In this document: one piece after another, positions 1,542-43,900 of the stretch | Numbering within the stretch: position 1 is the stretch's first letter | How the letters are laid out: every line of letters begins with the position of its first letter | From: Mesodorylaimus sp. YZB2_4 | Taxonomy: Eukaryota; Nematoda; Enoplea; Dorylaimida; Dorylaimidae | Direction: 5' to 3' | Length of the DNA stretch: 64,000 bases | NCBI GenBank assembly: GCA_030248295.1 | Contig: JASANH010000647.1 | Location: 930,001-994,000, forward strand | Position numbers and translations under genes: made by a program | Notes under the pieces: generated by a model | Told to the model about the DNA's origin: nothing | The model's database searches: none | What the model saw: the letters and a program-made list of their open reading frames with translations, nothing else

Positions 1542-2465
1542 TCAACTAGATTGGAGAAGCAGGCGCACTTCTTTGTCGTCAGTAGTTTGTTGCTGGCTTT
1601 GTCCATTTTCTCTTCCACCAACCATTCCAAAAATCAATGCACGAAAACGTTGCCTTAATAATTTATTAATGGCAAAATAAATAACAGGGTTTTGTATAAA
1701 GACGACGAGCCACAACAAATGAGTGGCAACGAATTCTCGCGTGCTTTTGGATACTCTTATGAAATTGAGCGCAAAAAAGAAGCTGGACGCAGTCACATAG
1801 ACGCCACTGGTAATGGCGCATTGAGCAAATAACTTTATTTCTCGCTTCCTGTTTTTGCTAGCCAACACGGTTCGAATTTGGGTCCTGGTTGTGCGCACCC
1901 AGTACATCGATCTAATATTGAATACGGCTATTGTGGCTAGGCAGGCGAAAATCCATGCCAAGTTGATGAGGGCTAATATTTGAGCTACCTTCTCCTCGAC
2001 GTATGCCCACGTGAAAATTGAGGGGATGAAGGTGTAGGGCAACGGACTGTGACAGAAACTAAACGTGAACACCACCGCCGTACCAGCATAGAAAGTCGCG
2101 CTGTAGATTTTTAAAAGTGTCTTACTAAACCACGCTTTTGTTCTCTGAGGCCAAACGATTTGAACGCATCTACTCACAGTCATCAGTACCATAAACCCAC
2201 TGCCAGAATAGAAACCAATTGCGGCCAGGTAGGCACAACTTCGATAAACCATTTCGTGTTGTAAGCTGCTCCACATAAGGGCCAGACCGGTATAGGCACC
2301 CAAAGGGAGCAAAATGAGAGCATCACAAATGCACAATTGAAACATGCAGTAGTAAGTCGGGTTACCAATTTTGACTTCCTTTAATAATAGTGAAGCGGTT
2401 ACAATGTTCAGCAGTATACCGAACAAGCTGATAGAGAGATAGATTATTCCTATAATCACCTCCAT
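1542..2465 (-). CDS. 7TM serpentine receptor B (rhodopsin-like fold)
   Basis: Intact single-exon gene of 307 residues. Hydrophobic segments lie near residues 5-28, 40-62, 82-105, 118-138, 160-185, 213-235 and 245-268. An extracellular-loop Cys is present near residue 77. The end of TM3 reads MTVSRCVQIVWP in place of DRY, a long basic third intracellular loop includes NRKREIKLF, and TM7 carries NPVIYF, which fits NPxxY. The short tail is Gln/Asp-rich. The closest relatives seen here are receptor A upstream in the same orientation and receptor C at 17.1 kb. It is probably a nematode chemoreceptor-type GPCR; the 7TM fold is well supported, the family name is not. Confidence 0.8.
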   Translation of the reverse strand: MEVIIGIIYLSISLFGILLNIVTASLLLKEVKIGNPTYYCMFQLCICDALILLPLGAYTGLALMWSSLQHEMVYRSCAYLAAIGFYSGSGFMVLMTVSRCVQIVWPQRTKAWFSKTLLKIYSATFYAGTAVVFTFSFCHSPLPYTFIPSIFTWAYVEEKVAQILALINLAWIFACLATIAVFNIRSMYWVRTTRTQIRTVLASKNRKREIKLFAQCAITSGVYVTASSFFFALNFIRVSKSTREFVATHLLWLVVFIQNPVIYFAINKLLRQRFRALIFGMVGGRENGQSQQQTTDDKEVRLLLQSS

Positions 2466-4266
2466 GGTTGCTATCCGTACCGCACCTCGGATTTGACTCT
2501 ATGTTCTTACCGGCCGATCACCTAACGCACGCAAGTTACTAGGATAATCGACAACATTCATTCATTACGGAGGAGAGAGAGCAGCTTTAGAATATAGTTC
2601 GCTCATATCACTTATTTAATTAGCCTAAAGCCATGAACTTGCAATTTTCCACCCAAGTACATGTAAGATGCCGATGGAACGTGGAAAACGGTCGCTGGGT
2701 CTATCGCAAATAGGGATCTCGCTCATTTTATCCTTGCACGAATCATCACTGTCAGCTTTGCTTCCCCGACATATGACGCTTCGAATTGAATATCTCTGCT
2801 AGACGCCTTCGTTTGTATCGAGTTGCCTTTCTTAAAACAAAAGGCTTGACGTGACTTTACGGCACCTGACCGGACATAAAAGGCCTTTTAGTTTCAACGC
2901 CATTAACGAGTACGGACCGTCATGTGAAAAGCCCAAGAGTACACATAAAACATTTCTGTCTCGCTTTTTGTTCACTCGCTTGCCAGTTTCCTTCTCGCCC
3001 ACCCATTTGCGCAGGTATAACAGTGCACTTTTCGAGTTACGTATTAAACTTTGCAGACGTACCTATTGGCGTGACACTGAGGATGAATGCTTATCACATG
3101 TTTGCTCGAAATACATCATTCATATAAGTCCGTGGGGTATTGTACCCAACTTCTCAATTCTCCACAGTGCCTCCCAACCGACTGAGCCTTCGGCGCTAGA
3201 TGGAAAAAACTTTCAACTGATACTTCACTCATTATAAAATGTCGGATAAGTGATCGGAAGATGGACAGAGAGTTTTCTAGCCTTAGGACAGAAACGTGAG
3301 CTAAAGAGGCGTACAAGTTCAAGCACATAATGCTTGTCCAACTGATTTTGGCACACTGAATGAAAAACTTTGAGCTCTTATCTACAAATGTGCACTATGT
3401 TGAACCCTTGTTTTATATTTACACCCAACCCACATTGAATACAGACCCGGTGAATGTGCATAGCATGACCTAAAATTAGCTATGGTGATTTCAGCGAACT
3501 GATCGTGCGCGGCTCAGGTGCAAAATGAAGGATTGATTTTAAAAATAATTGTTGCAACAAAGGCCGAAGGTGGGAGACCCGACGGGGACGCAGAGGCGTA
3601 GTACATATTATGGGATGCTCCTTACGACAGGCCTAATGAGGCTTCGTCTTACGAGATTAGAAGCTGCACAGACCGGCACATGAAATCGTTCTTAAATGGT
3701 TACATCAGAGATGTAAAGACACACAAAAAGGAAAGATTTTACTAGAATAATTCTCAGACTGTGCGATTTCGCCTTTTTAGTCTACTGCTTTGTTATTTCG
3801 TCTGGCTATCTCGCTCTACACTCTCAAAGCAGCCTGCTCCAGCTTCCGCCAATAATGCGCAATAGCCGAGCAATATGTACTTGCAACTATTCTTCTTCGA
3901 ATGGCTTTCACCAATGTGCATTGATCAAATTTTGTCGTATGTGCAGGACGCTGATTTTACCTGGAAGACTGCGGTATAAACCTCTGTGCCGTGATTGCTA
4001 GCTATTTCGCTTCGTGTAGCCTTTTCTCATATCATTATTCAAGAAAGGACCCCTAATTTGGCGTCTGTAGGGTGTTTCTTTTTACCGACCAAAAAATGAG
4101 CTTGCCAAAGCATACAAGCATACTGTTGACCTACATCGTGGAAAAAATAGTGATTTGTAAATAATAGACAAAATCAGGGAAAGTAACTAACGATAAGTCA
4201 TAAGCATTGGCCGTGTTCAGTCGTGACGTGCGAGACCTGCGAAACAGTGCTACGTCTATCGGCCAG
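2466..4266. other. intergenic, nothing recognised
   Basis: Several short open frames occur (for example 2851-3237), but none shows domain-like composition, a splice structure or similarity to anything else in the window. Confidence 0.5.
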
Positions 4267-5700
4267 CTACAAAGTACGGGGGCATTCAAAATCATCACAT
4301 GTCATCTTATTGTATTTCTCTTGAATGCGTTTCGGCTTCCATTTTCGTGGCTGATCTGTGGTTGACGAACTCTCCCTTTCTATTTTTCTATTCTTCTGCC
4401 TTGAATCCTTTCTACTTCTTGACGATTGCACACCTACGTTTCCTCGTGTTCTAACGCCAACGATATTTTTTACGGATGAGTAGTGAATGTAGGGTTCATT
4501 AGAGTTGCAAGATGCGCACCATTCGTGTGGACACTTGGGTAGCTCGTAGGAAGTACTCTTGTTAGCCATCATGGCATATCGCAGGTATATCTTACGAAGT
4601 CGTTGCTTCCTGTCCTCATTCAACGAGTGCTGCGTCAAGTAAGTCGTGGCTAAACGATGCCATAATAAGACAATGGCTTGATCAGCTTCTTGTTCTGAAG
4701 GAAAATGCGTGTTCTTTGAACTTTCTGCGCCGTCGGCTGCCACTTTGGCTTTGTACCACACGTACAATTCATCTTGCACCTTCTCGAAGTGCCTTTCGAC
4801 AGCTGCCCGAACTCCGGCGAGGAGAACGAACAGTGAACACATTGCAGTCAGAGTAAAGATGATATTTCCACAAATCACTGAGGCCCTGTCTATACAATAC
4901 TCACTAACTGATGCTGGCAATTGCATAAAGGCCACATAGAATGCGGCCAGAATGTCCCACTCGTCTTCCATCTTCGGTTCAGAACAGCCCGCGCACGGAT
5001 CGAAGGTGACATAAATGAATATGCCATATGCGATAAGGACAAAGATGATAATTAAAATAGTCGCAACGACCGGAAAATGAGATAGCGAATTCTTTCCTCC
5101 TTTTCGCATGAGAATGAAGTGTAAAGAATCAAGTCGTCGATACATTTCTGTTCCTAACTGGTACAAGCAGTAAGTATTGAATGGAATTCCTGCTATAGCG
5201 AACCCGATACACCAGATCTTCGCTGCCCATGTGCAAGGCGAACCGTGAGAACCTGAAATACAAGACACGAAAGAGCTTGATTGACGGCCTCCCCGTATTC
5301 TGCGTATTATCTAACCTGTCCAAGTCCAAATGCCGTTTACCAAATATGCGCTCCGCCAAAATGTCCAACTTGGTTCGCCTAAGCTGCAGTTCACATGTCT
5401 CATGCCAGATGCAGTTTTGAAATATTCAAACAGGCATACAATGCTAGCATTGATTAAAAGTGTGAAGAGCCAAAGCATAAATAGGAGACAAGAGCGGAAG
5501 AAACGGGGGTGATTGCCGATTGTGACCTTGGCGGCATTACAGCACGCTTTAAACGGCGAAAAGAACTTGCTGATATTAGCCTTACATTTCAAGTTCCCGT
5601 TGAGACATGAAGCAGCTTTTTGGTTAGAATTATCCAGAATGCTGAAAGCCAAGTTATTGATAGAACGCCAAAGCGGACGGATCGACAACAATGCTTGCAT
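4267..5700 (-). CDS. K2P (two-pore-domain) potassium-channel-like protein with atypical pore loops
   Basis: Two exons, 5700-5316 and 5252-4267, are joined across a 63-nt GT-AG intron and give 456 residues. The order is K2P-like: cytosolic N-terminus 1-68, TM1 about 71-92, extracellular cap with an NCS sequon, pore helix 1 (WTFWRSAYLVNG, 112-123), TM2 about 138-160 with FAIAGIPF (matching the family's ALFGIPL motif), TM3 about 188-212, pore helix 2 (WDILAAFYVAF, 227-237), TM4 about 253-275, then a long basic Ser-rich tail. K2P channels conduct background K+ as dimers. Both filters are aberrant: loop 1 reads TWTGSHGSP instead of TxGYG, and loop 2 reads LPASVSEYC instead of TxGFGD. K+ selectivity is therefore doubtful. 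The start is the first ATG after an in-frame stop near 5815. A degenerate or repurposed TWK-type channel is the best reading. Confidence 0.72.
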
Positions 5701-7908: not shown

Positions 7909-8147
7909 AGACATCAGGTGGACAACACCCGGGTTCAGTGGTAGATACGGCGTGATGCGGCGTGAACGGCACGTGCGGTGCCTATGCCGAGTGTGGTGAG
8001 CCTGGACGGGGCACCTGCTGCCGTCGGGACACACTCGCCGCCTCAGCATTGGGCCTCGCCACGACCTCGAGCCCAGCGGGTGGCGTTAACGTGCGCCAGA
8101 CGCCGACCAGCGACCACCTCGGAGAAGAGCAAGACCAGTGACCAGGG

Positions 8148-8235
8148 GGCGCTCGCGGACGAACCAGAGGGCGCTCGCGGACGAGCCAGAAGGCGCTCGC
8201 GGACGAACCAGAGGACGCTCGCGGACGAGCCACAC
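8148..8235. repeat. four tandem 22-bp units
   Basis: Four consecutive 22-base units (8148-8169, 8170-8191, 8192-8213, 8214-8235) share the core CGCTCGCGGACGA. Units 1 and 3 read GAACC after the core and units 2 and 4 read GAGCC, which suggests duplication of a 44-base dimer. The period is not a multiple of three. Confidence 0.9.
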
Positions 8236-8246
8236 ACTCTCCGCGG

Positions 8247-8298
8247 ACCCAATCACATCACTCTGGTCGGGGTCTTCACCAGAGTGATGTGATTGGGT
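8247..8298. repeat. perfect 21-bp inverted repeat with 10-nt loop
   Basis: Positions 8247-8267 are exactly complementary to 8278-8298, around the loop CGGGGTCTTC. The left arm begins 12 bases after the 22-bp tandem array. Such perfect arms are expected of a recent foldback event or a hairpin-forming site. No T-run follows that would suggest a Pol III terminator. Confidence 0.9.
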
Positions 8299-16139: not shown

Positions 16140-17100
16140 GGGATTCTTCTTTTTTTAGTTGGCCTGATGGTTATGTTTGGTAGTCAGCTAATGCATTTCA
16201 GGTGCTGGTGTCATACCTACTTTATGTATTTCTAGTACTACTAGACTTGTTTTTGACGTGGACTGAAAGTAGACTATGGCTAGCTGTTTTCTTAGTTTTC
16301 ATAAGGATGGTTTCATGTTTTACTCCTTTTTTATGCATGGTGGTTGACAAAATATGGCGAAGATATGCCTAATGTAAAGTGAGATGCGTCCTCCCATTGC
16401 TGGTTAGGCTGCGACGCTATCGACGTCGCCTATCTAACGTAAAAATATGAATATATAATCGGCTTAAAAACAGAGACTTTTGGGCTCATGCACAAACTGC
16501 TATCAACTGATTGATCTCCAACGATCTGTAGAGACTTGGATGGCATGGTATGGCAGTTTATAAGCATCAGCAAAAATAGGGATGAACTTACGATACTCCT
16601 CCTTGCAGGGACGGCAGGAGACTTGCCTCATGCATCATACAGGATATATATATATCGAGTATATTTTAGACTCATCGTAACTCGTGTACAGGATATCAAC
16701 ATCCCGGTCAAGCCACCACTGGAATCACGCTGTCGGAAACATATTCTACGGCTGCACAATTTCATCTTACTTTATGGGTTTTGCGTCCAACTAACGCATC
16801 GAACACTTTACATACTGCACATACGGACAGTTGAGGGGCCCGTGTGGACACGTTCATCAAATTCCCAGTAGGTGTATATCGAAAACGGAGAACATAATTA
16901 CATATTGTGGTCTGAACAGAAGGCATCACTCTCTTGGCTTGCTGCAAATTCGAACTTGAAGAAGCCGAGAATCTGTACGGGAGAGTTTGGTACAGTTTGT
17001 CGGCTCGCCCAACTGCCATCCTTCGCATGTAATCGTGCGGTCAGGCAAGAGAACTGATCTTTTAGATTCTATAACAGTTTCGGTCTGAACCAATTAAGGG
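16140..17100. other. intergenic, nothing recognised
   Basis: AT-rich sequence between bestrophin and receptor C. No gene or repeat structure stands out. Confidence 0.5.
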
Positions 17101-18126
17101 ATGGCGAACAGTACCGATCACTACTCGACTGTATTATTACCCATCGCCATCACTTATTTGACCATTGGCATGACAGGCATATTTATGAATGTCCTCGCCG
17201 CCTTCTTTATGGCAACAGAGAAAGAGATGCGCCACGCGACCTACTCCTACATGATCCAACTTTGTATCTGCGACTGCATAGTCCTATTATGTGCGTCGGT
17301 TTACACCGGCCTCGCATTATTATGGCCTCTCTTTTTGAAGGAGAATCTCACAGCATTGTGTGGATTTGTAACGGGAATCAGATGGTATAGTGGCAGTTGC
17401 TTTATGATACTCATTGCACAAAGCCGGTGTGTTCAGCTAGTTTGTTCTCACAAGACTGATGTCATTTTCTCGAAATCTGTTGTTCGCTTCTCCATTTTGG
17501 CCATGTACCTGTGCCCAGCCTTATTTTACACGTACAACTTGTTGCGCAGACCGCTCATATTTTATGTGTCCACGGTGACGAATACGTGGGTGTTCAAAAC
17601 CGATGATCAATTTGGGCATATTATGTCCGTCCTGAACATCGCATTCAATATGGTTTGCGCGGCTGCGATCACAGTCCTCAACTCCGGATCATTGCACTGG
17701 GTTCGCATGACCAGAAAACGTATTCAAACAGTACAAAATCAGGAAAATCGAAAAAGGGAAGTGAAATTATTTCTTCAATGCGCTATCACAGGCACTGTGT
17801 ACACCGTAACTGTAACCGTATTCTTCATAATACCTACAATGAGGATGGGAGGCGAAGAGATATGGGTCTTCGTTACGACCCACGTTGGTTGGATGATGGT
17901 ACATGTCGAGAACCCAATAATCTATTTCACAATGAACACTCTTTTGCAGCGTCGTTTGAGGCAGCTCCTTCGATGCAAGCAAGGACCGAATCCTACTATC
18001 TCATCAAATATTAAACACATACAATCGGCAAATGCCCTTCTGATCATCAGCCAATTGCGAAGGCGCCCGCAGAGATTGCTTAATGATATGGAAATGTCTG
18101 CAGGGCGCTGCTTCCCGTCCGCTTGA
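17101..18126 (+). CDS. 7TM serpentine receptor C (rhodopsin-like fold)
   Basis: Intact single-exon gene of 341 residues starting MANSTDHYS, with an N-glycosylation sequon (NST) in the extracellular N-terminus. Seven hydrophobic segments follow. Shared marks with receptors A and B are YMIQLCICD in TM2, YTGLALLWPLF before loop 1, AQSRCVQLVC at the DRY position, NRKREVKLFLQCAI before TM6, and NPIIYFTMN at the NPxxY position. The C-tail is longer and more basic than in B. It lies on the opposite strand and 15 kb from A and B, so the family is dispersed locally rather than strictly in tandem. An AATAAA at 18482 could serve as poly(A) signal. Chemosensory function is inferred from family resemblance only. 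Confidence 0.82.
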   Translation: MANSTDHYSTVLLPIAITYLTIGMTGIFMNVLAAFFMATEKEMRHATYSYMIQLCICDCIVLLCASVYTGLALLWPLFLKENLTALCGFVTGIRWYSGSCFMILIAQSRCVQLVCSHKTDVIFSKSVVRFSILAMYLCPALFYTYNLLRRPLIFYVSTVTNTWVFKTDDQFGHIMSVLNIAFNMVCAAAITVLNSGSLHWVRMTRKRIQTVQNQENRKREVKLFLQCAITGTVYTVTVTVFFIIPTMRMGGEEIWVFVTTHVGWMMVHVENPIIYFTMNTLLQRRLRQLLRCKQGPNPTISSNIKHIQSANALLIISQLRRRPQRLLNDMEMSAGRCFPSA

Positions 18127-21100: not shown

Positions 21101-21789
21101 GGAGTACTTGTTTCGTGGTCCCATCCTCAGGCGCGAATCGTATCATCTTCAATCTTTCCTATCATAAGGGACATTTTTCTTTGATAGGCATTGCGCGACA
21201 GCCGGCAGACTATCCTGAATACACCGGAATTCCGGTCTCAACGTGTAGCCAGCTTTCCAAATCCGATGATGTTCAAAGAATGAAAAGAGGAGCGTGGACG
21301 ATCGAAAGTGGATTAGGTCGATCAATACCTATATTCTCCTCCCCCCCCCCCCCCAAATAGCAACGTCTGTGTGAATGGCAAAGGTTGGGAAACTGATGCT
21401 CTTGTATTCATCTGCAAAATGGACTTTTTGCCAAACGATTGCGGAGAATGAAAGAAAATAGTAGCAAGACTGATTAGGTTCGCAGAGGTAGGTATCCTAT
21501 TTCGCGGACATTACATGGACAGGTGATAACTTTGACTTTTATCCAAATGACAGACGTCAAGCTGAGAGTATGACACAGAATTTGCCAGCTTCCCTTACCG
21601 CTAGCGCAGCCTTCTAGCTGAGAATAAGGCGTCATTTGAGAAGCTTCGCCTTAAACCTCTAGTGTGGCTTAATTCAAGAAATGCCGGTAACATCTCAAAT
21701 CTCCTTGCTAGGCCACCACGGTGTCAGCTGCTAGTGCGACTCGTAGGAGTCTTAACCTGCTATTTATTTGCAGCGGATTGAATCGTCAC
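18127..21789. other. intergenic, with receptor fragment and C14 tract
   Basis: Contains the partial receptor copy at 19122-19313 and a run of 14 C at 21341-21354. No intact gene is seen. A pyrimidine-rich acceptor-like site ending TTTGCAG just before 21776 could be a 5' UTR splice or trans-splice site for the DEG/ENaC gene that follows. Confidence 0.5.
19122..19313 (+). pseudogene. broken partial duplicate of receptor C
   Basis: About 180 bases are nearly identical to 17491-17683 of receptor C (TM4 to TM5 part): by eye, four substitutions and one inserted A. The insertion (GCAGAACCGC against GCAGACCGC) shifts the frame, and similarity stops abruptly at both ends. No other receptor exons are recognisable around it, although the preceding 100 bases may be a more diverged piece (a VGRLCAIW-like translation). 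It is a recent, non-functional segmental copy. Confidence 0.85.
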
Positions 21790-24700
21790 ATGATGAAACC
21801 AGTCATATATTTCCAAAATAGGTGGCGTCTTTTCTTCAATAACACCACAATCCACGGTGTCAAGGAAGTGGCAACAGCCCCAACATGGCCTTTGAGAATC
21901 CTATGGCTATTATTATTATTGTCATTCAGCGGAACGATGGCTTATCAGATTTATCACCTGACCGATCATTACTTCCAGGAGCCCGTAGTCGTCGTGATCA
22001 AGACGATGAGAGATGAAGATTACAAAACGTCGAACATGACCACGAGTTACGAGTTACCTCTGACTTTGTTACTTGTCCCAACTTTGGACTTGTTCAATGC
22101 CTCGCCTGAAGCTAACCGAGCTTTGACCGATTCACCTTTCGATGTGCACACACGTTATTACATTAGATCATTGGTCGACTCTAATTTCCAAGTGCCCCTG
22201 GATTATAATGGGACACACGGAAAGGAGCAATTCGATCGCTATCTGGCCGATCGCCCACATTTGACGTGGCACGACGTCGTATCGCCTTTCGTCGCCAACG
22301 TGTCTTATTGGCTCGGTGACGGCGAGGATTTCAAAAGTTTCAGTATTGTTAACAGGACCATATCGTCATACATGACATACCACTTCATCAAACCTATCTT
22401 TGATCAGCCTATGCTAAAAACAGCCGACGAAACAAAAGATATTCTCCTGGATGCCGCCATCGATTTCAGCCCCGATGTCATGAAGAAATCGACCAGCGAT
22501 CATGGGCGGACACCAGTGTTCTGCATCACAAGCTACGGCTTAGCGTCTGATATGGTTCGGCTGAAAAGCGGTAAGTACGGGCGCCGAGATTGTTACGACA
22601 CCTGCGAGCCGTAATTTTCTTCTGGAGATCCGTGTTTTAAAAAGCACCGTGAAAAACTGTGGCTCATCAAGGGCAGTCTTGGCTAATTCTATGGATTTTG
22701 ACATGAATGCAGACATCTACTCGTAGAACCAGTAGCGAACTACAGGACTACTGTGCAATATACTTTCAAAGCTGAGGGCCTAATTACAGCTTAGGGCCAC
22801 AGTCTTCAGCGGGAGATAGAGCAGATACTGTAGGCTTAGGTTCACGCATTTCATGTCTGTGCTGTCCAGCCGATCGACTGTGTGATACAGAATTACCATA
22901 AAACAGTATGGCGACTATCCCAGGTTATAAAAAAGAGCATAGGTAGAAGGATTGCAGGCAGCCCTCAGTCAATGGTGAAGGACCAATGGTTCATCGGTCA
23001 TCACTAACAAAAATCCTACTGAAATATTAGGCCCTTCTTACCAGCTCAGGCCTAATAGTAAGTGCTTTTGCACCGAACATACACGCTTCGGCGCCAGGGC
23101 AGCAATAGAGGATTAACGGTATTTTAGTAGCTCGTTGATGTGGCCATGCTATAGTGGCTTCTAGTTTTATCGTGAGCCTCGCTTCTGGTCGCCTGACAGC
23201 ATGCGGTGGTGTTTAAAGCCAACCGTGTCCACGTCCATGTAAGGACTGGGCTACCTCATCGACAATCGAGTTGAGAGATGTCTCGATTTGACTGTAGAGT
23301 CGATGTGACACAAAAATTCTCACAGTTGGATATTGGGAAACACAATTCCAATCATGACAAGCCTTTGGACTCTATGGTTTTGGCAAATCAAGTGAACTCA
23401 CGAGAAGTAGTAGGCACAGTATCTTGCCTTTGTCCTGCCTACCCCGTGTCCATCCTCTAATGTACGGTAGGTACATAAAGACACAGGTCACCTGAGCCCG
23501 ATTGCCGTAGTGATTAGACGTCTGATTCTCTCTCTAAGTTGGAATCTACGAGGAAGGTCTAACTGATAAAAATAGGAGTTTGTTTTCTGTGTCTGATGTC
23601 TCGTTGAGTACAGTATGATTAAAGGCAGGTGCGGCTAGCGCTTGCGTAAATTTTTTTCTTTCCGGTGCTCTATGTAGACCTTGAATGCTAATACATCGCT
23701 CATAATATGCGCGAGGATAATATTATTGAGCGCATATTGCCTCGTAGCTAGCCCGACCGACTGGGGCTAAATTGCCAGTGGAAACAGCGTGGGAGATTAC
23801 CAGGCTTACGTAATGTATCTCTTCATTCAGTTACCTTGGCTGGGGGACAGTCTGCTTAATTTTTTAAATTTTGCGGTACGTTTTGGGTCGCGAAAATAAA
23901 ATCTGGTTCTGTGAAGCTTTTTTAAAAGTTATCACAAAGGGTTTGCCATTGACTGACGTTATGAGGCCGATGTCTAACGTCGAGGCCCCGATAGTCCCAT
24001 TACAGCCAATGCATCAGTACGGCCTTTAGTACGGCTATTAATCACTCGAAAAGGTTACGAAGAGGCAACTTGAAACTAACCGACGGGGGCGCGGGGGCTA
24101 ATGTTGTAGATGTCTGACACCAAGCTTCAGAGTAATGAAATGTCTTGTGGTGAAACGACACCAGACAGTTCGTTCCACTACAGGATTTTCCGAAATCATG
24201 TTTAGACTCTATTCATTTAAAATACATGGGGGAATCCCGATCCCGAGTGTCTCTGTTTTAGCTATAAATCGAGAACCTTGTGAGTGAATATAATTTACAT
24301 AAACATGCGGACTGAATACTGTATATGAGGAGCTGTATGCCAAAAAGTTTTGTATGACTGCTGGCTATATTTTTACACACGTGCAAATGGGTGCATGCGT
24401 TAAATGTCATATATAACCCGTATCTATGCAGTTTTGTCGGCAATTACCCGACAGATTAGAACGCGCATCTGAAAGCTGAGCTAAAGAGGCCAGCCATCCT
24501 CTGAGGGTGAGAAAATACGGGTATCTTGTCCAAGGTTAGTGCCTTTTGGCACCGACTACGAGCGACCGAATACTGCTAAATGGTTCTAGGATGGCTAAAA
24601 GAGGATCCTCTTGGGTACAATTATCATTTTTTGTTACATAGACCCACTAAAACCGTGCAGACGGATATAGCACCCTTTAGATAACTGAAGAAAGTCAGAA

Positions 24701-27700: not shown

Positions 27701-29821
27701 CTGATTTCCTTCCAGCGAGGTGTTGGAGAAATATTCGATAAACTCTTGCAGCTTAACTTGGTCTTGATTGTCCAATTGAGGAAGTCGCTGCTGCAGCATA
27801 TTCAAGCCAGTGGCACCAATTGAGGAGGTAGAAGAGCGGTGCTCTTAACCATACTGATCCAAACTCGGAAAGGATACTATGTTCAGCGTCAGCACCGTTT
27901 TTTGCATTTTTTGCTATCAGTATTTATTGCATATTTTACCGCGGAAATTTTAAACATTGAGTCTGGCATCTTTAGAGTATGTACGCTCTGCACGCTCACG
28001 AATGATAGCCATGTAGAATTTATGGGCATGTAGAAAGTATATATGAGTGCGGAACTGCCGCGGCTTGCGTGCGGAACGGACACAGGTCACTCGAACAATA
28101 GCGCGTGCGGAACTGGCGTATGATCTCTCGCATATTTCAAATCTGTACCCTGCTAGCCAGACACGCGTCAAAGGCGGCGGCAGCGACTATTTACGACTGC
28201 AACGAAGCCTTGTGCGCGGTCGCAGAGCACGGGATGTGCGTGGAGCTCGCACGCTTAGAAAACACGGCGGCAGAAACAATTTGTTCTATACTTATGCAAT
28301 CGAGATAATACTGGACTAATGAGCCTACGCCTAACGCTAAACCTAGGACGAGAAAGGAATAAGATATGAAAGAAAAAGCAAGGGAGGTATATAATGCGAT
28401 ATCCTCTACAAAATAAACCCATTTCAACCTACTTACAATTATTCACTGTCTGTGTCTAATTTACTGTCTGTGTCCAGTTTGTGCACATACTTGGGGATCA
28501 TTAGCACAGAGCCCGCCTTCTGACTCCCCCTGAGAAATGACTTCCCTGTGAATGAGCTAGTATACAAGGCCTACGAGTCACTTTTTCTGTGTCTACAGAA
28601 GGAGTTTGTAACGAAGTATGTAATACAACTGAAGAACAAAGCATTTCTACATCCTTTAAATGTGAACGTGAATTGGACACGGACAGTAAATAATTGCAAG
28701 TAGGTAGAAAAGGGTTTTATTTCTACTGGATATTACAGAATCCGACTCCCTTGCGTCTTTCATATTTTATCACTTCATTTCTCATTCCAGGCTTAGGCTT
28801 AGGCTCATTAGTCTGATATTTCCTCGATTGCATAGCCATCGAACAAAAAGTTGTTTCTGCCCGCCATGTTGCAAGCGAGCTCCTCCCACGCACGGCCAGT
28901 GCTCTGCGACCACGCACACCCTTTCGTTGCAGTCACAAACAGACGCTGTCGCCGCCTTTGACGCGTGTCTGCCTAGCAGGGTACACATTTGAAATATGCT
29001 GATCTCTCATTGGTAGCCCATTGCTGACCTTGTTTATTTTAGGCACGACGTACAAAATCAGTTTCGACATCGTGGGTCACCGTCGCATTTCTTTGAAACG
29101 ACGTCCATGTGTTGTTGATCGTGTGCAGTATCAATCGTACGACTATGAAGCATGTGCACAGCAATGTCTTTTCGACGCTGAACATAAATGGACACCACGG
29201 GTTTGCTACAGGCACACTTACGATTGGGGCTTTTACAAAACTTTTATCATAGCTCGCCCTTGCTCGCACGGCATCCACTACAATGCTAGCAGCGTGGACG
29301 AGGGCGGTATCTTGGACCAAGTCGAAGAGCCCTCCTACATCGCTGAACCCACTGAGGAAGATTTGGCCAAGGTGGAGAGGAGTTATCAATCTTGCATTCG
29401 CGAGCACTGTGCTCACGCTTGTCAACAAATGTCCGTCAAGTTTTACACGAAAAGTTCCGATTTTCATGAAAGACTCGGAAATAAGTCCATGATTTGGATG
29501 ACGTGGCCAGGACCAGGAGCGGTGCCTGTTTATGTCGAGACTCTGCAGTACACTTGGGATGGCTATGTCGGCCAACTTGGTGGTCTCATGGGCCTTTGGC
29601 TTGGAGCGAGTATGATATCTATTTGCGACTTGCTTTACGTGTTCTGTTGCTGCTTTCGAATTGAGAAAAGAAGAGAAGCTTCCAGTCGGCGGAAACGGCG
29701 GTGCGCAGAAAATGGAAGTTTGGTCAATGTCCCAGGTGACAAAGGAATGGTCAACCCACCCATGGACTTGGTTGATACTGTTAATGAAAACTTGATAATA
29801 AAGCCCGTGACGCTTTGTTAG
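21790..29821 (+). CDS. DEG/ENaC (degenerin/epithelial Na+ channel family) subunit 1
   Basis: Two exons, 21790-22570 and 29043-29821, are joined across a 6.47-kb intron (GTAAGT donor, TTTTAG acceptor, phase 1) and give 519 residues. The family forms trimeric amiloride-sensitive cation channels gated by mechanical force, acid or peptides. Marks are the HG gating motif at 22-23 (TTIHGVKEV), TM1 about 37-55, a large Cys-rich ectodomain (for example CAQQCLF, RVCYRHTYDWGFY, CIREHCAHACQQM) with several NxS/T sequons, and the pre-TM2/TM2 run QLGGLMGLWLGASMISICDLLY with the GAS selectivity filter at 448-450. A CCC cluster follows TM2. The start was chosen by alignment with subunits 2 and 3. Unlike them it has no intron before GAS. 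A poly(A) signal lies at 30027. Confidence 0.9.
23496..23562 (+). repeat. tRNA-derived SINE-like module
   Basis: The sequence CCGTAGTGATTAGACGTC resembles a tRNA A-box/D-arm region. About 35 bases further on, GTTGGAATCTACG resembles a degraded B-box. No acceptor stem pairs, so it is not a working tRNA gene. A SINE head or tRNA relic is the likely origin. Confidence 0.35.
26425..26512 (-). pseudogene. antisense relic of a DEG/ENaC gene
   Basis: About 80 bases match positions 31328-31408 inside exon 1 of DEG/ENaC subunit 2 at roughly 80% identity by eye, the part encoding the SSDNSMMNFGAERSE region of the ectodomain. It translates on the minus strand to SDNSKINSGSKEENS. It lies antisense within the intron of subunit 1, and no further exons are recognisable nearby. 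Confidence 0.6.
26608..26675 (-). repeat. tRNA-derived SINE-like module
   Basis: Read on the minus strand, TGGCTTGGTGGGTTAGGCG fits an A-box/D-arm, then GTCTGCCTTTCAGGC an anticodon-arm-like segment, and a weak B-box follows. It resembles tRNA-headed SINEs rather than a functional tRNA. Confidence 0.4.
27066..28117. mobile_element. MULE-type DNA transposon remnant with 114-bp terminal inverted repeats
   Basis: Inverted repeats at 27066-27179 and 28004-28117 match over their length with only a few differences. Each carries three copies of GTTCCGCACGC-like subterminal motifs. Between them lies a minus-strand frame encoding the C-terminal part of a Mutator-like transposase. The element is about 1.05 kb, too short for a full transposase of this class, so it is an internally deleted copy. 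No clear 8-9 bp target duplication is seen by eye. It sits in an intron of DEG/ENaC subunit 1. Confidence 0.75.
27281..27805 (-). pseudogene. Mutator-like (MULE) transposase, C-terminal fragment
   Basis: 174 codons. The pattern FVWNHWNSHDMRTTNHAEGYHSSLN matches in type the region following the DDE core of MULE transposases (W, RTNN, EG-H). It is followed by HPSLRNFLASLQ, typical of the helical C-terminus. The catalytic DDE domain and zinc-finger parts are absent, and the sequence between this frame and the right inverted repeat is only about 200 bases. It is therefore non-autonomous. Confidence 0.7.
28130..28999. mobile_element. foldback element with about 330-bp inverted arms
   Basis: 28130-28460 is the inverted partner of 28671-28999, about 80-85% identical by eye with small indels, around a 210-base spacer. 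No protein is encoded. The left arm starts 12 bases after the end of the MULE remnant. Arms this long with divergence suggest an old foldback/MITE-like insertion. Confidence 0.8.
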
Positions 29822-30401: not shown

Positions 30402-32450
30402 TCAGTGTCTGTCGGTTTCGTCTAATGTCCAAGTACGAGTATCTGTTTTCAGTTTTTTCAATTCGTCCTTATTGGACGTGTAGTAATTCCCATTTCGGTT
30501 ATAATCGCTTCCATACCTCGTTTCCTCGTCACTACGAGCGCTTTTATATATACCCGTCGAATTAGAATTGGACCTTCGAGGCGCCTCGTTTTTATCACTG
30601 CGGACATCGTAGCAGCAACAGCAGCACAAATATAAGGCCTCGAAAAAGGACATCATAGATGCCCCCATCCACAATCCTGAAACATACACACTTATTGAGC
30701 AGGTAGACTTGGCCAGTTGTAAGCGGTGTACCTTATTAGCTGGACGGGGTGCCTGCTCAATGCTCCATTCTTCACACTAACCTGACAAGGGAAGCAAAAA
30801 TAATTGTGGTCTATCAGTGAAGACCCTCTAATTGTGGAATGCTTATGTACCAGCATGGCTGCCACGAGAGGCCAGGCATATATCCTCAATAATTTGTGGC
30901 GGATACCTAGGCTAGCTTCCTCAATCATCTGTCTCACATTCTGCCACTCATGACGGTCTTTAAGAGTGAGTGTCTGTAAGTCGCTGTCAGCCGTCCAACA
31001 GTTATCTCAGCAATATATAAATAATGCATACAGCACAGCCCACTGGCGCCGGGGATTTCTGTCATTTCGCCTGGGATTCGAAGAACATCCTGACCTAAAA
31101 TGCACCATACTTGCCTACTAAGCCTCCGAGTTGGCCAACGAATCCGTCCCAAGTGTACTGTAGTCCCACTTCGTATACCGTAACGGCGTTGACTGCTGGC
31201 CAGGTAGCGTAGAGAAGAGATTTATTGCCGAGTTCTACGCTGAATTCTCGACTACTGCTGTCCAGTTTGACTTCGAGCTCCTCGCACGCCTCGCCGCATT
31301 CGTCCATCAAACAGCGTTTGTGCTCTTCGATCATCTTATCTCGATTGCTGCCTGGAAGGAGCTCGCTTCTTTCGGCCCCGAAATTCATCATGCTGTTATC
31401 GCTGGACTGATAGTAAAATCCGAACGAGCATGGTCTAGTTTTGTTGTACATTTCATAGAAGCCCCATTCGTAGTTGCGATGGTAATAGCACGTTCGGGGC
31501 ATCCATTTTTGTTGGGCTTTGAGAAAGCACGTTTCGTTGCACCTTTGCTCGTCGTACATTCGAAAACGGACGGCATTCATCCTGCATTGCTTGCGTCTCA
31601 AAGGAGTTTGCTTGTGCGACTGTAAGTCGAAACGGACTTTCAAAATACGGCCGGGTTCGAATCGTATTGCATCAGTCAATAGACCATAACTGGTCAGTAC
31701 GAACGTTACCCAATGGCCCGGTTTGCGCATGGGTGACAAGATTGATAAGTTATGCCAGCTGAATTGAGTTTCGATTTGAAAGTCGTGGTTAAGCTCTGAG
31801 ATGCGATCGCCATTGGCCGGTTTTATCATGAAATATGTGGCTATGTTCCAGAGGGATCTTTGAATGACCTTAAACGCCCTGACCGCATTTCCACCAGTCT
31901 CGATCCAGCCAGTGATGTCGGTCATGTACGGTCTAAGCAAATCAAAATAGGAAAGTTTTGTGCCATTTCCCAAAGTGACATTATTTACAATGCTCTCCCA
32001 CTTGGCTTTGGCACGTTTGAAATTAAAGTCCTTCGAAACCAGTACCCGAGCATCGACCAGCGATCGACCGTAGGTCAATGTCTCGTAATCCAGCATTATA
32101 TCATCCGCTTTGGTCTCTGCCCCGGGTGGGAACGGACACTTGCGATCGGGCTCGTCGCCCATGTTCAGACAAGGCGGGAAAAGATCACGGGTGTGAGCCA
32201 CGAACAGGAACAGGGGAACGGGATAGGACTCATTGCGGACGTAGACAGTCGTGGCCACGGGCTCCTTCAAATAGTGATTGGTCAGTTTGTAAATTTGGTA
32301 TGACATCATACACGCACTCAGCGTGACGATGAAAAGCCAGAGTAATTTGAGTATACTCAATGGGGCACGATTGATCTCCTTGACTCCGTGGAGTGTGGTC
32401 GAATCGGCGAAGATTCTCCAACGTCGAAGCACATATTTTTGGATGGTCAT
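30402..32450 (-). CDS. DEG/ENaC channel subunit 2
   Basis: Two exons, 32450-31115 and 30676-30402, give 536 residues. The 438-nt intron has a GC donor (G|GCAAGT) and a TTTCAG acceptor. Motifs are HG at 21-22 (TTLHGVKEI), TM1 about 33-53, TSYGLLTDAIRFEPG at the ectodomain position shared with subunits 1 and 3, Cys-rich blocks (CNETCFLKAQQKW, RTCYYHRNYEWGFYE, CLMDECGEACEEL), TWDGFVGQLGG before TM2 and the GAS filter at 450-452. TM2 runs straight into five consecutive Cys (463-467), a possible palmitoylation site. The cytosolic tail is Ser/Asn/Arg-rich and low in structure. Nearest relative is subunit 3 (same strand, same pre-GAS intron). Gating stimulus is unknown. Confidence 0.9.
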
Positions 32451-34773
32451 GGCTGTTGTTTTCCCAAAGTTGACAATGGACGCCTTTTAAGGCAGAGCGG
32501 TAAGACCGACTGGTCCGAAACTGGTCGTGTTAGTAGAAAGAAGAGCTCGAACGATGAGTTGGCTTTCTCTAAAGTACCATAAAAAATTTATAATCCAGTG
32601 TTTTGTCACGACAGCATGTTAGGGGATTAGGAAACGCTACAGGTCGCGCGACAGGATGTGAGGTGGATCAAAGTTAATGAATTCTCCGTATCCTCCCCTC
32701 AGGGTACCTCCGAGCGTCTGACCGTTCGACCGTACGCGTGTGCTTGCTATTGGACTCCCGATGCTGTCCCAACTGAGGCCCAGGCGCAAGGCATGTGAAC
32801 GGGTGCTAGAGCAGCGTGTTCGATATCAATTTGGAAATTGATTTGTAGGGGTAGCGACGTGGGAGGCCATGAAATGGCTTACGCGCTAACGCAACAACCA
32901 GCCCGACTAGAAGCAATTTTTAGATGGTCGGCGTTAAGGGAAAACTGAAACCGCTTCGATTAACCTGCCTTCGAGTTCAGTGATGGTGCAGTCGACGTGG
33001 TTAGTTCTTTCTTCAGGCTCAATCGGTCTAGAATTACAAGCTTACAGGTTTTACTAGTTTCTCCTTCCTCAAGGAAAACATTGAATTTCAAGAAAAACTA
33101 AGGCTCTCTTTCTCCGTCACCAAGCAAACCGAGACTGGAATGCTCTTTTAACACATTTCTCATCCTTCTTCGATCATCAAGCAAGAAAATTCCGCGCCAA
33201 GCGTGCGCTCTGGCTGCCAGGAATAAAACTAGGTTCAGAAAAATTCAGCTGCGATTAGATTTCAAACTTGAGAGCAGCCATTGTCTAGAGCCCTCTTTGA
33301 TCTTCCTCTTCCTGCTCTGCCCAACGCCCCTCCCCCGTAGGTACCACAAACATGGCGGTGCCTACAAAGAACCGATCGGGGCGCGTTAGCATTTTTTAGG
33401 TGCCCGCATATAGAAAGTTTATGGACGGGCGAGTCCCAGACGGATCAGGCTCGAATGGATTCAGAAAAATACTAATTCGAAAATCTAATCCCAGGTTTGC
33501 TGCATTCTAATTGCGCTCACGTTTTATCGTCTTTTTGTTTGGGGAATCGGACAGCGGGGTATCTGCGTCCATTCGCGCTTTTTCTTCACGCTACAGCACA
33601 AATTGCTTTGTCCAAATGGCGTAGGCGAAGGGAAGGAAAAAACTCAGAAAGCCTGTCAGGAGCAAGCCTCGTCAGGAGTACTCGAGCTTGGTCTATTATG
33701 ACGTGGAGAGTCAAACGCCAGGCATGCTCAGGAATTTGTCATATCCCATTGCTTAACAACTTCTCCAAATCCGATCGAAATAAACCTGCTTGCCTCCACT
33801 CAACCGAAAGCGGGCCACGCTTCTTGGTCAATAAGCACACACGTGGGCGAGGATAGAATAATTGAATAGATAAATACTGAAGCCTACAAAAAGCTGCCAA
33901 CTCTCCAGTTGCTAAGAACCAAAGTTTTAGAACCATCAATGGCATTGAGTAGGAGCAGAGAGCAGAGGTATTTCAAATAACGAAACAGTGCAAGTCCTAA
34001 TTGCTTCCCTTTTTGCTGCCTTCGTTGAACAACTCGCCAATCTTAGAGAACGTAAAATATGCCCTTTTCGAGCGTACTTGCGACGTATTTAGGCTTCAGC
34101 GATGCATGTATTACATAGCACTGCTAGCTCTGATTTTCCAACACTGCTTAGTCTCTTTTCAGTAGGTGGAAGACTGATCGTGAATCATTGGCCAGCTTAT
34201 TGTTAGTGGGCGAGCTTTGATGGGAAGCTTATTCACTCATAAATGTAGCGAGGTAGTAAAACGGTCGCTTATGCCGAGAGTCGATATAAATTTCAGTACT
34301 CGTACACAATAAGAATTTCTGACTTTACGAGTGCACACAAAAATTGGCTTTATCAGTGTTTTCAATCAGACGCGACACACTTGTTAGACGCTTAGAGAAA
34401 GCTTTGAATCTTTTAAGTTTAGCCTTATCAAAATGGCATAGTTTCAGCAAAGGCTAAGAAATTGAGTGTTGATAAAGTACCTTGAGCACCTCTCCTCGCC
34501 GTATTCTCACATGCTATCTCTATTCTTTGTTTATCTTGTCTTCGTAACTTGAAACCCAATTGACATTGTTTTAGACACGATGTGCGTCTGGTCTTCTGAC
34601 TTGTACTTTGGCACTCGAAGATAAGTGCTTGAAGAGGTTGGAGTCGGTAGAGCGTTGGTAAGAGAGTGAAGTATACTCTTCCGTGGTCCGCCAAAGAAGA
34701 GCAGCAACAGAAGCCCGTTGTCTTGAAAATAGAAGCGATCAATTGAGCTTGAAAAGTTTTCAGCCTACATAGA
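32451..34773. other. intergenic, nothing recognised
   Basis: Divergent spacer between DEG/ENaC subunit 2 (-) and the ammonium transporter (+); promoters of both are expected here. No gene or repeat stands out. Confidence 0.5.
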
Positions 34774-38200: not shown

Positions 38201-40962
38201 CTAGTCATACATTGTCCTGGGTAACCACACCTCGTTTCTCGTCATCTCATCCATGTTATAGACCCCATTTTTAGCATGTTTGTGCAGTTGGCAACAGCTC
38301 CCAATATTCGTCACTGTTTGCGTCCCACTACCGCTGCGTCGTTGCTTCATTCCGTACATCTTCTCTTCGTCCTCCTGCTGCTCGTCGTTGACCACATCGT
38401 AACAACAGCAGCAGCACAAGTAGAATGCTTCGAAGGCTGACATCATGCTCGCGCCCATCCAAAGGCCTAAATGCAGAGGACAGTTTAGTGCTCGAATGAT
38501 TCGCTGGACAATTTATTCTAAAGTGGACATCTGCTAGTATCCCGCCCCTGATCTAAACTGTGATACTCCTCCCAGCTATAGATGGGGAGAGCCACACAGG
38601 CATTATGTTCGAATCACCAGTGCGCATACCTACTGAAATGGGCGCAACAACGATACCTCTTTATTTGGCCAACGGGCGGACACCTCTACAAGAGTAGGGC
38701 GGTACAAACAGGACGGGGAAAGAACCCTCATCAAGCGATGCGGGTTACAAAACCCATGCAAGCCAGACTTATGCGATGTCCTTTCCTGCTACGGCACAGG
38801 TCGTCCTCCTTTCTGACTACTTCTGAATCTCAGTTGTATACAAGTCGAGATCATTGCCCGGCAGTACATCTTATAGGCACTTACCGATCAATCCGCCCAA
38901 CTGACCCACGAATCCATCCCAAGTATACTGTAATGCTTCATCATAAACTGGCACAGCGTTAGGAGCCGGCCATGTGACGAAGAGCAAGGATCGATTTCTC
39001 AAATCATTGCCGAATTCTCGCGTAGTTGTGGAAAATCGAACGGAAAGCTGCTCGCAGGCTGGCAAACAGTCCTCGTCGAAACAATTTTTGTAAGCTTGCA
39101 GTACCTGCGCATCGGAAGCGCCTTCCAACAATTTCGATTTTTCTCTGGAGAATGGACCCCCAGTCGCATTGAAGAAGCCGTAAGAGCAAGGTCTCATTGC
39201 GGGGCTCAACTCGTAGAATCCCCACTCGAAAGCACTATGGTCATAGCATTTTCGGGGTGCGAACTGAAGTTGGGCTTTGGCCAAACAAGTTTCGTTGCAT
39301 CGTTGTTGCTCGTACATCAAGTACTGAGTGAAGCCAGTCCGACAGGTCTTCCTTCTCAGATTCACACTCCTTTGACTGTTCATTTCGAATCGGATTTTGT
39401 AAATGTGTCCAGCTTCCAATCGTATGGCATCTGTCAAGAGTCCGTAGCTGGTCAGGATCAAACTGGCTGGGATTTCATCAGCTATCAAAGGGGCACTCAT
39501 ACTGTTCCAGAATAACGGTACTTCCACGACAAAGTCGTGCGTCAATTGCAGCGGCGAGGAACGACTGTCCACTGGTTCCAAAATGTGATAGGTGGCAATG
39601 TTCCACATTGAACGACGCCACACTCGTAGCCTGTTGTCTGCCCCGATCCACGCTGATAAGTCGTACAAGTATGGTTCGAGGGCGTCGTGCCATGTCATAC
39701 CTGGAACCAAAATATTTAGAGCTGCTATACAGTAAATGAGACTTGGGCAACTGACCCAAGCCAGTGCTGCAATAAGCGTCACAGCTCATGCTGTAGCCCT
39801 GATCGTCAGTTCTTGGCACCCCGCGGTAATAGGATATCAAAGGAGCCCGAGCCAGGGACACAAGCGAAGGGGATTACAGCATGAGCAGGTCCAGTATATG
39901 CCCCTGTAAAAAAGTAATGATTGTAGGATTTTCATTAACAGGTCCCACACCCTCGCAATAGACACTTTTGTGAGTGATGGTGATGAAGATCATCAGGGCG
40001 GCCAAACAATGGTAAGGAGTAAAATAAAAACGTGAGCGCGCAAGACGGGTTTCTTTTGTACTGATAGTTTAGGCACATACTCGTATTCACACACATTGAG
40101 TGCTGACTCACAGTCGTTAATGCAAGAAGCACTGTCTTTTAGGGTTGATACTGTCCGTGTGCACAAAACATCTTGTCGTCAAATTTAGTTTCCATTTATT
40201 CAAGTGTGCCAGTCGTGTAAATATGAAAATATGCTTCCTGTTAAATGTAGGAGCTCTCCGTATTCGTAGTCTACACTACACCATCTTACCAGGATTAGAT
40301 GCCAGATACTCGTCGAACTTTCTTCGTCCTCGCTCGAAGTCGTATCCGGCTGGCAAGTACACTTTCTTATCAACCAAAGAGTGGGCGTAAGCCAATGTCT
40401 CGCCGTCCATCCCTTTCGGTCTGACTTTACCTTTGGGCTCTACCGAGAACAGTTCGTGCGTGTGAGCGACAAGTAGAAAAAGCGGGAGGTGATAAAAATT
40501 ATTCTTAACAGTAACGGTAGTGGTTACGGGTTCAGTGAGGAAATGCGCAGTGAGTTTATATATTTGGAAGAACATAATCGAGGCGCATAGTGTCAGGATG
40601 ATCAACCACAGGACTTTTAATTTTCTCATGGGCGCCTTATAAATCTCCTTGACACCATGCAAGGTCGTGTAGTCAGCGAATATGCGCCAACGATGGGCGA
40701 GATACCGCTTAATCATTTGTGGATCTGAATTCAGCGAGAGCTTGGTCGATGCTCTATGCTGATGGTGCCTTTTCCGTTTCTTCTCCAATTCTAATAAATC
40801 GGGGCACGGTCCATTCGATCTGTCACTCTGGAACTCGGAACTGATGAGTGAACCAGAAGGAGGCACAGCAAAATAACCGGCCCCGCATAACTCGTCATTC
40901 TCTGCACCACATTTCTCCATGGCGATAAAACGCAATTTCCTAAACCTCTTGTTCACTTTCAC
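38201..40962 (-). CDS. DEG/ENaC channel subunit 3
   Basis: Three exons, 40962-40290, 39700-38885 and 38466-38201 (introns 589 and 418 nt), give 584 residues. The N-terminus is about 80 residues longer than in subunits 1 and 2 and holds a basic run KKRKRHHQHR (61-70). HG is at 102-103 (TTLHGVKEI), TM1 about 115-133, then the Cys-rich ectodomain (CNETCLAKAQLQF, RKCYDHSAFEWGFYE, CFDEDCLPACEQL), TWDGFVGQLGG and the GAS filter at 501-503. Five consecutive Cys (514-518) follow TM2, as in subunit 2. The tail is Asp/Glu- and Ser-rich. The pre-GAS intron is shared with subunit 2; the other intron, before MTWHDALEP, occurs in neither subunit 1 nor 2. An upstream alternative start at Met15 is possible. 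Confidence 0.9.
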
Positions 40963-43900
40963 ACGCTAAGATTTGAACTAAGACCACGCAGCAGAATTCA
41001 AATTCTTGCTTATTTTACGATAAGACTCATGCAAAACAGGCACGACATGGCCTTCTCTCGGAATGGGTAAAAATGCGACGTGCTTGGATCCATTTCCTCC
41101 AAAGAGTGCAAGTTGATATCGAATTTCTTTCCCACCGCGCCCGCAAGAGTTTTCCAACAAGCAGAAACCTCTGACAGAAGACCCATTTTCTAAAAGCCCA
41201 TTTACGTATTTCATTACCCATCTGGAATTGCCTGGCTATGAAATCGATGGAAGCCTAATTTCGGTTAGCTGAGTGACTATGGCAGCTTTTTCGGCAAATT
41301 GACGCAAGTGAGTGCCTATCTGGAATCATTCGCCTGGACATGGCCGTACAGTTGCTCTGGTCATAATGCTCAAACTATTATGCGCGGAAGCTGGTTAGCT
41401 CTAGTCGAGTGAGCCTGGAGGGGGGACGCACTAATGACCGCTGGAAATATCGGAGGAACACGATAGGTACTCAAATTTACTGAATCCCTAGCGGATAGGG
41501 CTAACGACAATGAATTGCATGTAGGCTCTCCAATGTCTTCCGCATATAGAGGCGACTTTTAGCTTCGCAGAATTTTTTGCATTCAATTTAATGCATTTGA
41601 TACCCTATCTCCTACCCTTGCGAGCCATTGTAGCATCTCTGCTTTAACTGGTACGCGTTGCAGCGCTTACACTCACAGTTAGTAGTGCAGACTGTGGTTC
41701 CCTCCTTATCGTGAGCACTCTGCTGACCCGCTAAAATCTTTTGGTTCTGAAAGTTCTGTTTGAGGGGAGCTAGTTAAAGGCCACTGGTGTGATTTTGTAA
41801 CACTTTCAGTGCTAACTACACCCTCTGACAAATCATTTCGGCACCCTGACTCTTGCACTAATAGCAGTCGCAGGTGGGTAAGCAGAAACAAAATACTACT
41901 CACTGCTAAAAATTGCTAAGATTTGAGTGCGCAAGGACGAACACAGCCCGCCTAAAAACCCCTTTTCTTTTCCGACTAATTAAAGATATTTAGTTCTTAT
42001 TTGGATTCAGTTTACTAACCGTTAGAGAGACCTAAAAATTGTATTCCTCTATTGTTCCCTGATGCAGCAGTATTCGAAAATTGCACAGAAAAACTGTTGC
42101 TTTATTCGCTGAGTAGGGGGCAGCCGCTTACCTTTCATCGGTCTCAAGGTGACATCGGACAGTATATTGGATCAGTAGCTATAATAACATCATCGAAAGC
42201 ACACAACAGACCTTGTCCCTGCATGGAAATGCAGGGGCTTCTGATCAGACGATCATTTTCAGTATCATTTGTTAGTCATTCGCACAGTCTTTGAACTTTG
42301 GCTCATCCGAGCATCACATAAGCGCGCTGTTAAGTAACAGGAAATTCATAGTCCTTCCATACTGTTTGGTCCATGGCGGTGGTTTGCTTCGACTGACCTA
42401 GCCTTGTTTCTGTGCAGTCCTCACTGTTCATAATCGATTGGTTATAGTGTGAACATCGGCAGACAAGAATTTGTCGACAAGCGGCAAAGTGACCAGGGAC
42501 GCGCTGACCCGCCGGCACAAGAGAAGATCATCTCCAAAACGTCTGATATGACAAACAAAAACTGTTAGACCATCAAATTGTTTTGCACAGAATGACTAGG
42601 AATGACAGGATGACTGGCTTACTTGGTCACTAGCACAGGGCCCTCAATTACGTTTACACGCCAGCATGTAAACCGGGTCACTTTGCAAGAAGGAAGCTGT
42701 TCCTGCCCGTGAGTTTCCTGATCTACGATTCTGTACCAACGTAAGCTCACGACAAACGGAAACAGGATTCAAGGTGCTTTAGCGACCTGTATACAACGCT
42801 TATAGTTAGTCCGCCGCTCTTTTCGTGTGTCACTGGTGCCTTGTTACATTCTACTCCTGTCGCAACATGGGGTCGGCTGCAAGTTTTTGGCGAGGTCGGC
42901 AGTGCAAGTGGCCACTGCTGTGGCCATCAATTCATGGCTGTCGTGTAGATGACACCACAGAGGCCCGCATGCTTTGCATAGTTGCGTCCGGAAACGACTC
43001 CGCCAGCTGTTGTCAATATTCGATGGGTGCACAAAACAGTCCGTCGCCTTGGCTCGCGTCAATGCGGATGAAAATAAAGCTAGACCCCGCGTGAAACTGA
43101 AACCGGAAACTGAATTGGCGTCGTGCAGCCTCGTCTGGGGCCATCATCACCCAACGCTTGGTCGCGCGTGACACTTCCGGTTTTCGACAAAAGTATCAAT
43201 GTTTTATTTCGTGTCAACACGAGTAAAAAGCGATGAATAACAAAGTTCGAGTACGTATCCTAGCTGGGTAATTTTCTACCGCCGACCTGTGAGTATCCTT
43301 GGCACTTGTTGGTTTGGCAAGTAAATATTTTTTTATTTCCTGCTGGGTTCCCTGCAGGTCTGCTTTGAGGTCCCCGATGGAAACTTTGTTAGCTGGCCTG
43401 CACCAACTCTCTCGTTTTATACGTTTCCTCTTCTTGCTGCTTTCTGTGATCAGCCCTGGACATTTGGTTGGAATCCCGTTTTCCCATCGGACCCATGCCA
43501 AGATAAACATGTTTGACTGTTGCTAGCGATAATTGATTCATTTTCTCTGCTAAAGTCCCATCATCGTAGAAGTAGTCGAACCATGCAGTCTAGTCGACAA
43601 CTTTTTAGTGGACCAAACCTGGGGGGGGGGGGAGGTGCCACCACCATACGAACCGAACTATAGCACTGTGGACTTGATGAGAGGTAGGAAGAAGTTTTCA
43701 GCAAAAAGAAGAGAATAATATATACAAACATTAAAATTTTCCGTCATCTCTCAAATTAATCATTCGTCCCACTTTTCAAAGGAAAAGCGGAAGTTGCATG
43801 GAAAACCAGGAAGGGAAAACGTATCCTTGGCTATGCCATTGTGTCCACAGCCGCCTTTCTATCGCGTTTGTGTGCGTATGTCCGGTTGGATGGTTTGATT

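Follow-up and report, generated by a model that had tools for sequence, protein, structure and literature searches.

A K2P-derived gene of the nematode Mesodorylaimus with both potassium filter signatures degenerate: a candidate pseudochannel

The potassium filter of two-pore-domain potassium (K2P) channels is built from the backbone carbonyls of TxGYG-type strands, four to a pore and two from each subunit, and the extracellular cap is part of the dimer interface. In KCNK7, filter 2 is altered at one residue (GLE). The vertebrate subunits KCNK7 (K2P7.1), THIK2 (K2P12.1) and TASK5 (K2P15.1) are described as carrying no measurable current on their own (PMC5428834, PMC11339754), and a Gly-to-Glu change in filter 1 of Caenorhabditis elegans TWK-2 is described as isolated as a potential loss-of-function suppressor (PMC9049526). 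The cap is stated to be present in all K2P channels (PMC13087257), and the family is reported as unusually large in nematodes, with 47 genes in C. elegans (PMC6377628). Here we describe a gene of K2P descent, with an intact frame and an intron at the homologous position, that has lost both filter signatures and the cap-sized linker. It lies on the minus strand of a 64,000-nucleotide stretch (hereafter the window; contig JASANH010000647.1, positions 930,001 to 994,000) of the 145-Mb genome of Mesodorylaimus sp. YZB2_4. Searches of the open-licence literature listed no title or abstract opening in which a K2P without both filters is described.

The gene resembles the K2Ps of the nematode TWK family in the order TM1-P1-TM2-TM3-P2-TM4 (TM, transmembrane helix; P, pore region), in the GIPF motif of TM2, in the tryptophan and aromatics of the pore helices, and in an intron at the glycine codon of filter 1. 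It differs from them in the loss of both filters, a TM1-P1 linker of 19 residues, a CAGC insertion and a Pfam score under the cut-off. Its exons run from 5700 to 5316 and from 5252 to 4267, and after splicing they give 456 codons in one open frame from a Met at 5700 to a TAG at 4267-4269. Its features, with helices from an AlphaFold2 (AF2) model where stated, are as follows.

5316-5700, minus strand: exon 1, with the N-terminal tail, TM1, the short TM1-P1 linker, pore helix 1 and the start of filter 1, ending on base 1 of codon Gly129 (spliced translation; AF2 helices at residues 65-97 and 114-126)
5253-5315, minus strand: intron of 63 nt, phase 1, acceptor position as in split K2P paralogues
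4267-5252, minus strand: exon 2, with the rest of filter 1, TM2 with GIPF, TM3, pore helix 2, filter 2, TM4, the C-terminal tail and the stop
5425-5502, minus strand: TM1, residues 67-92 (AF2 model)
5371-5424, minus strand: short TM1-P1 linker YFKTASGMRHVNCSLGEP where K2Ps have the cap; contains C105 and the sequon NCS
5326-5370, minus strand: pore helix 1 SWTFWRSAYLVNGIW (paralogue alignment; model helix 114-126)
5242-5325, minus strand: degenerate filter 1, TWTGSHG, residues 126-132, split by the intron
5107-5229, minus strand: TM2 with GIPF (alignment and AF2 model)
5008-5088, minus strand: TM3 (AF2 model)
4984-4995, minus strand: CAGC (C215, C218) in the TM3-P2 linker, an insertion relative to 11 aligned paralogue rows
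4918-4968, minus strand: pore helix 2 EDEWDILAAFYVAFMQL, retaining 4 of 6 consensus columns
4897-4917, minus strand: degenerate filter 2, PASVSEY, residues 241-247, retaining 0 of 6 consensus columns in the register used
4732-4884, minus strand: TM4 and cytoplasmic extension (model helix 273-323)

The intron (5315-5253) is of the GT..AG type and interrupts the first glycine codon of filter 1 (donor TTTGGACTTGGACAG/gttaga, acceptor cttgtatttcag/GTTCTC); left unspliced, it places an in-frame TAG right after the glycine codon. Its removal gives the single open frame of 456 residues with a clean intron that was proposed in an initial annotation of this DNA. The stop-to-stop frame around exon 2 has 347 codons, about 19 of them intronic, and is longer than chance would give, the longest open reading frame (ORF) being 221 codons (mean 105) when the spliced DNA was simulated 2,000 times under a first-order Markov model and read in six frames. 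Frame and splice sites carry no disabling change, and the gene does not look like a simple pseudogene, as had been noted. Codon choice gave a z of 3.5 against an amino-acid-matched null drawn from the gene's own composition, above all of 24 control frames presumed to be non-coding (mean 0.97, maximum 2.6) and above the other frames of the gene itself; given that control mean, the excess is modest.

Descent from K2Ps is supported by similarity searches and by gene structure. The best match in a phmmer search of PDB sequences was K2P1 (E 2e-4, residues 103-242), and 20 of 20 matches at E <=1 were K2Ps. A K2P profile built from 20 paralogues of the same nematode genome matched residues 109-290 at E 2.5e-8, whereas none of 1,001 control sequences (the reversed protein, 500 shuffles and 500 block shuffles) scored better than E 0.95. 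We consider the shared intron position the strongest single point for K2P descent. All 26 split K2P paralogues examined share with the window gene an acceptor that cuts the filter-1 glycine codon between its first and second bases, and a donor matching that of the window gene was identified for 12 of these 26. The protein has four transmembrane helices and two pore helices in the K2P order and is a K2P-derived homologue. The architecture described earlier is kept in the order of its helices and pores and in GIPF, and fails at the cap linker, which has only 19 residues. The search with Pfam Ion_trans_2 (PF07885) that had been proposed as a check gave 11.4 bits against a gathering cut-off of 22.5, so that annotation based on Pfam would miss the gene. 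Since neither filter signature, nor the cap, nor a Pfam score above the cut-off is found, we do not class the protein as a K2P channel.

The homologous intron also fixes the register of filter 1 independently of residue similarity. This speaks against a wrong gene model, under which the real protein would be built from other exons with normal filters, and filter 2 lies inside a single continuous exon. Apart from weak or short matches, a scan of the window with three K2P profiles turned up no exon carrying normal filters; the best of these matches, to P2, has 14 residues (21241-21312, minus strand, E 0.03) and is upstream of the gene. There could be additional upstream or downstream exons, which leaves such an error conceivable, and we hold it to be very improbable.

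Filter 1 reads TWTGSHG where K2Ps have T-x-G-Y-G, and filter 2 reads PASVSEY where they have T-x-G-[FLY]-G-D. The register of filter 2 was set by us, anchored on pore helix 2, and alignments place the gaps differently; GxG is missing in any register, G257 being the only glycine in residues 240-257. The initial observation of a K2P-like gene with both filters degenerate is confirmed. Among paralogues of the same genome, P1 has GYG in 40 of 44 (the others are L015 GYS, L050 GYD, L051 GFD and L052 GYS), and P2 has GxG in 39 of the 41 that could be read, the exceptions being L051 (TLG) and L037 (an inserted residue). The filter-1 intron is missing in 18 of the 44. This audit was based on 59 fetched loci, excluding L009 and L010 of the window itself, and these represent 58 of 108 Ion_trans_2 clusters obtained from 150 scored of 258 candidates. 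L053 was merged with L008 (same gene) and L059 with L054 (near-identical copy), and 13 loci judged Kv-like or other were set aside (L014, L018, L019, L020, L021, L024, L033, L035, L043, L044, L045, L055 and L060); P2 was unreadable in three of the remaining 44 (L011, L029 and L046). The Ion_trans_2 family of this genome is large, with at least 108 clusters, some of them Kv-like and some near-identical copies (L054/L059).

Compared with paralogue rows of our choosing (17 for P1, 30 for P2), the window protein keeps 2 of 6 consensus columns in filter 1 and none of 6 in filter 2. Elsewhere it keeps 1 of 2 in pore helix 1, 4 of 6 in pore helix 2, 3 of 7 from the end of the filter to the IP of TM2 and 1 of 2 after IP; two of the 17 P1 rows (L040 and L042, with VP instead of IP) dropped out of the block up to IP and are misplaced after it.

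The extracellular cap, or most of it, is gone as well, a loss missed by the initial annotation. From the TM1-terminal Glu to the pore-helix Trp the linker measures 19 residues; in 13 paralogues with hand-set anchors it measures 47-79 (longer linkers, e.g. those of L002, L007, L008, L012 and L034, are not among them). The AF2 model predicts no helix in this stretch of the window protein. Five cysteines (C105, C135, C215, C218 and C248) are on the predicted extracellular side. Although the 13 measured linkers contain none, the idea that such cysteines are peculiar to the window protein was rejected, as paralogues outside the 13 carry them before P1 (L008, L056 and L057) or just after filter 1 (L002, one cysteine); only the inserted CAGC therefore stands out. 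These residues bear on the possibility of a conducting channel with changed selectivity, non-selective or for another ion, in which a new filter would be formed by other residues, perhaps braced by putative disulfides among the five cysteines. The pore helices are predicted in place and CAGC is inserted before P2, which would fit such a channel, as would the cysteine-free linkers of the 13 paralogues. Against it stand Pro, Val, Glu and Tyr at the usual Thr, Gly, Gly and Asp of filter 2, and the cysteines, not being unique, lend it less; we regard changed selectivity as improbable, next in line after the decaying duplicate considered below.

With both filter strands replaced, no potassium selectivity is expected of the protein by itself. 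We lean, with some reserve, towards a pseudochannel, i.e., a nematode K2P-derived protein-coding gene whose product would keep the transmembrane and pore body without a potassium-coordinating filter. Such a product would probably be unable to conduct potassium on its own and may regulate other channels. By analogy with the TWK-2 filter mutant and the silent vertebrate K2Ps we interpret it as a K2P-derived subunit or scaffold that does not conduct, although the change in KCNK7 is far smaller than in the window protein and the silent subunits are vertebrate K2Ps. The gene would be expressed and its product would reach the membrane without conducting potassium. One possible mode, which we put forward tentatively, is partner silencing, in which the protein would pair with canonical K2P subunits through the transmembrane and pore-helix interface; with four strands per pore, two from each subunit, one such subunit would spoil half. 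A role as a membrane scaffold, or another non-conducting mode, seems slightly less likely again. The earlier interpretation is partly supported, namely in K2P descent, the intact frame, the clean intron and the loss of both filters; the dominant-negative, scaffold or non-selective function that it suggested is conjectural. It is also possible, if doubtful, that nematodes have a conserved class of K2P-derived pseudochannels that lack filters and cap and are under selection for a non-conducting role, e.g., the silencing of K2P partners; we liken such a class to pseudokinases.

Several results weigh against the pseudochannel reading. With the cap lost, it is less sure that the protein can pair with canonical K2Ps, and in some silent vertebrate K2Ps the cause is described as lying outside the filter, e.g., in intracellular retention (PMC5428834). 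A profile of paralogue P2-TM4 regions gave no match to exon 2 at E <=1, which makes the second half the most diverged part. Structural support is limited: Foldseek returned nothing at E <=0.001 (best 0.011), the AF2 model leans on the K2P alignment and includes 21 intron-encoded residues, and a single-sequence model was uninformative (mean predicted local distance difference test score 54.1). In codon choice the gene ranks near the bottom of the paralogue range, z 3.2 versus 3.0-7.7 in 14 paralogue frames (leave-one-out) under a first null made without non-coding controls, and among the gene's own other frames an antisense frame reached z 2.8, the maximum. A search for seven polyadenylation hexamer variants in the 566 bases past the stop found a single AGTAAA at offset 523. 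The concentration of losses in the filters is borderline (one-sided Fisher p 0.053 overall, 0.030 for P2 alone). The branch of the window gene is the longest in a 21-row tree, 4.2 versus a median of 0.71 (L056, 3.87), a length that also fits relaxed constraint.

The main rival is accordingly a K2P duplicate freed from constraint and evolving neutrally, its function lost and stops yet to build up. The long branch, the loss of both filters and the cap, the miss of exon 2 by the P2-TM4 profile and the low codon score are all what such decay would produce, and the best matches to the gene elsewhere in its own genome reach only E 0.013 with the whole protein and E 0.003 with the TM1-TM2 piece. Against decay, identities of 12-31% to the aligned paralogue rows suggest that the gene is very old, and still all 456 codons and both splice sites are undamaged; the filters were lost while the intron, GIPF and pore helix 2 were retained, with the statistical reservation given above. 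Decay of this kind we judge unlikely, though a serious contender; the gene itself appears to be old, fast-evolving and intact.

No close copy of the window gene was found in its own genome and it has no supported neighbour in the 21-row tree. A candidate sibling at C118:296870-297151, matched by the TM1-TM2 piece below threshold (E 0.135), was rejected as a chance match, the ORFs in 2.3 kb showing no K2P features by eye. The P2 piece matches C82 at E 2. One scan of viral contigs for relatives of exon 2 yielded four pattern matches, all unrelated.

Four K2P paralogues (L050, L051, L052 and L015) resemble the window gene in having an altered P1, with the second glycine replaced. Unlike it, they score over the Pfam cut-off and retain most of both filters. 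Three of them, L050 (C24:337072-341188, GYD), L051 (C24:359798-363923, GFD) and L052 (C25:141012-145128, GYS), form a supported clade (99/96 in the 21-row tree) with the window gene outside it, and may represent a second set of K2Ps with altered filters in the same worm. L015 (C1:1064428-1068985) has both pores in one open frame, with GYS in P1 and GIG in P2.

Elsewhere the window contains four ORFs with the Pfam ASC domain of DEG/ENaC sodium channels, at 21712-22611 (plus strand), 29003-29818 (plus), 31098-32486 (minus) and 40279-40965 (minus), an apparent local cluster within 20 kb. Two chemoreceptor ORFs of Srx/Srt type, at 1542-2498 (minus) and 17098-18123 (plus), are each one long open frame, and the window also encodes a cuticle-collagen N-terminal domain; such chemoreceptors and collagen are signs of a nematode. 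A tandem array at 8141-8248 has a 22-base unit in about four copies, recorded in two overlapping rows.

If the gene is a decaying copy, it would be an unremarkable outcome of the kind that a large gene family yields. If the pseudochannel reading is true, the K2P fold would have been kept in this nematode for something besides potassium leak, and a hidden layer of subunit regulation would be predicted.
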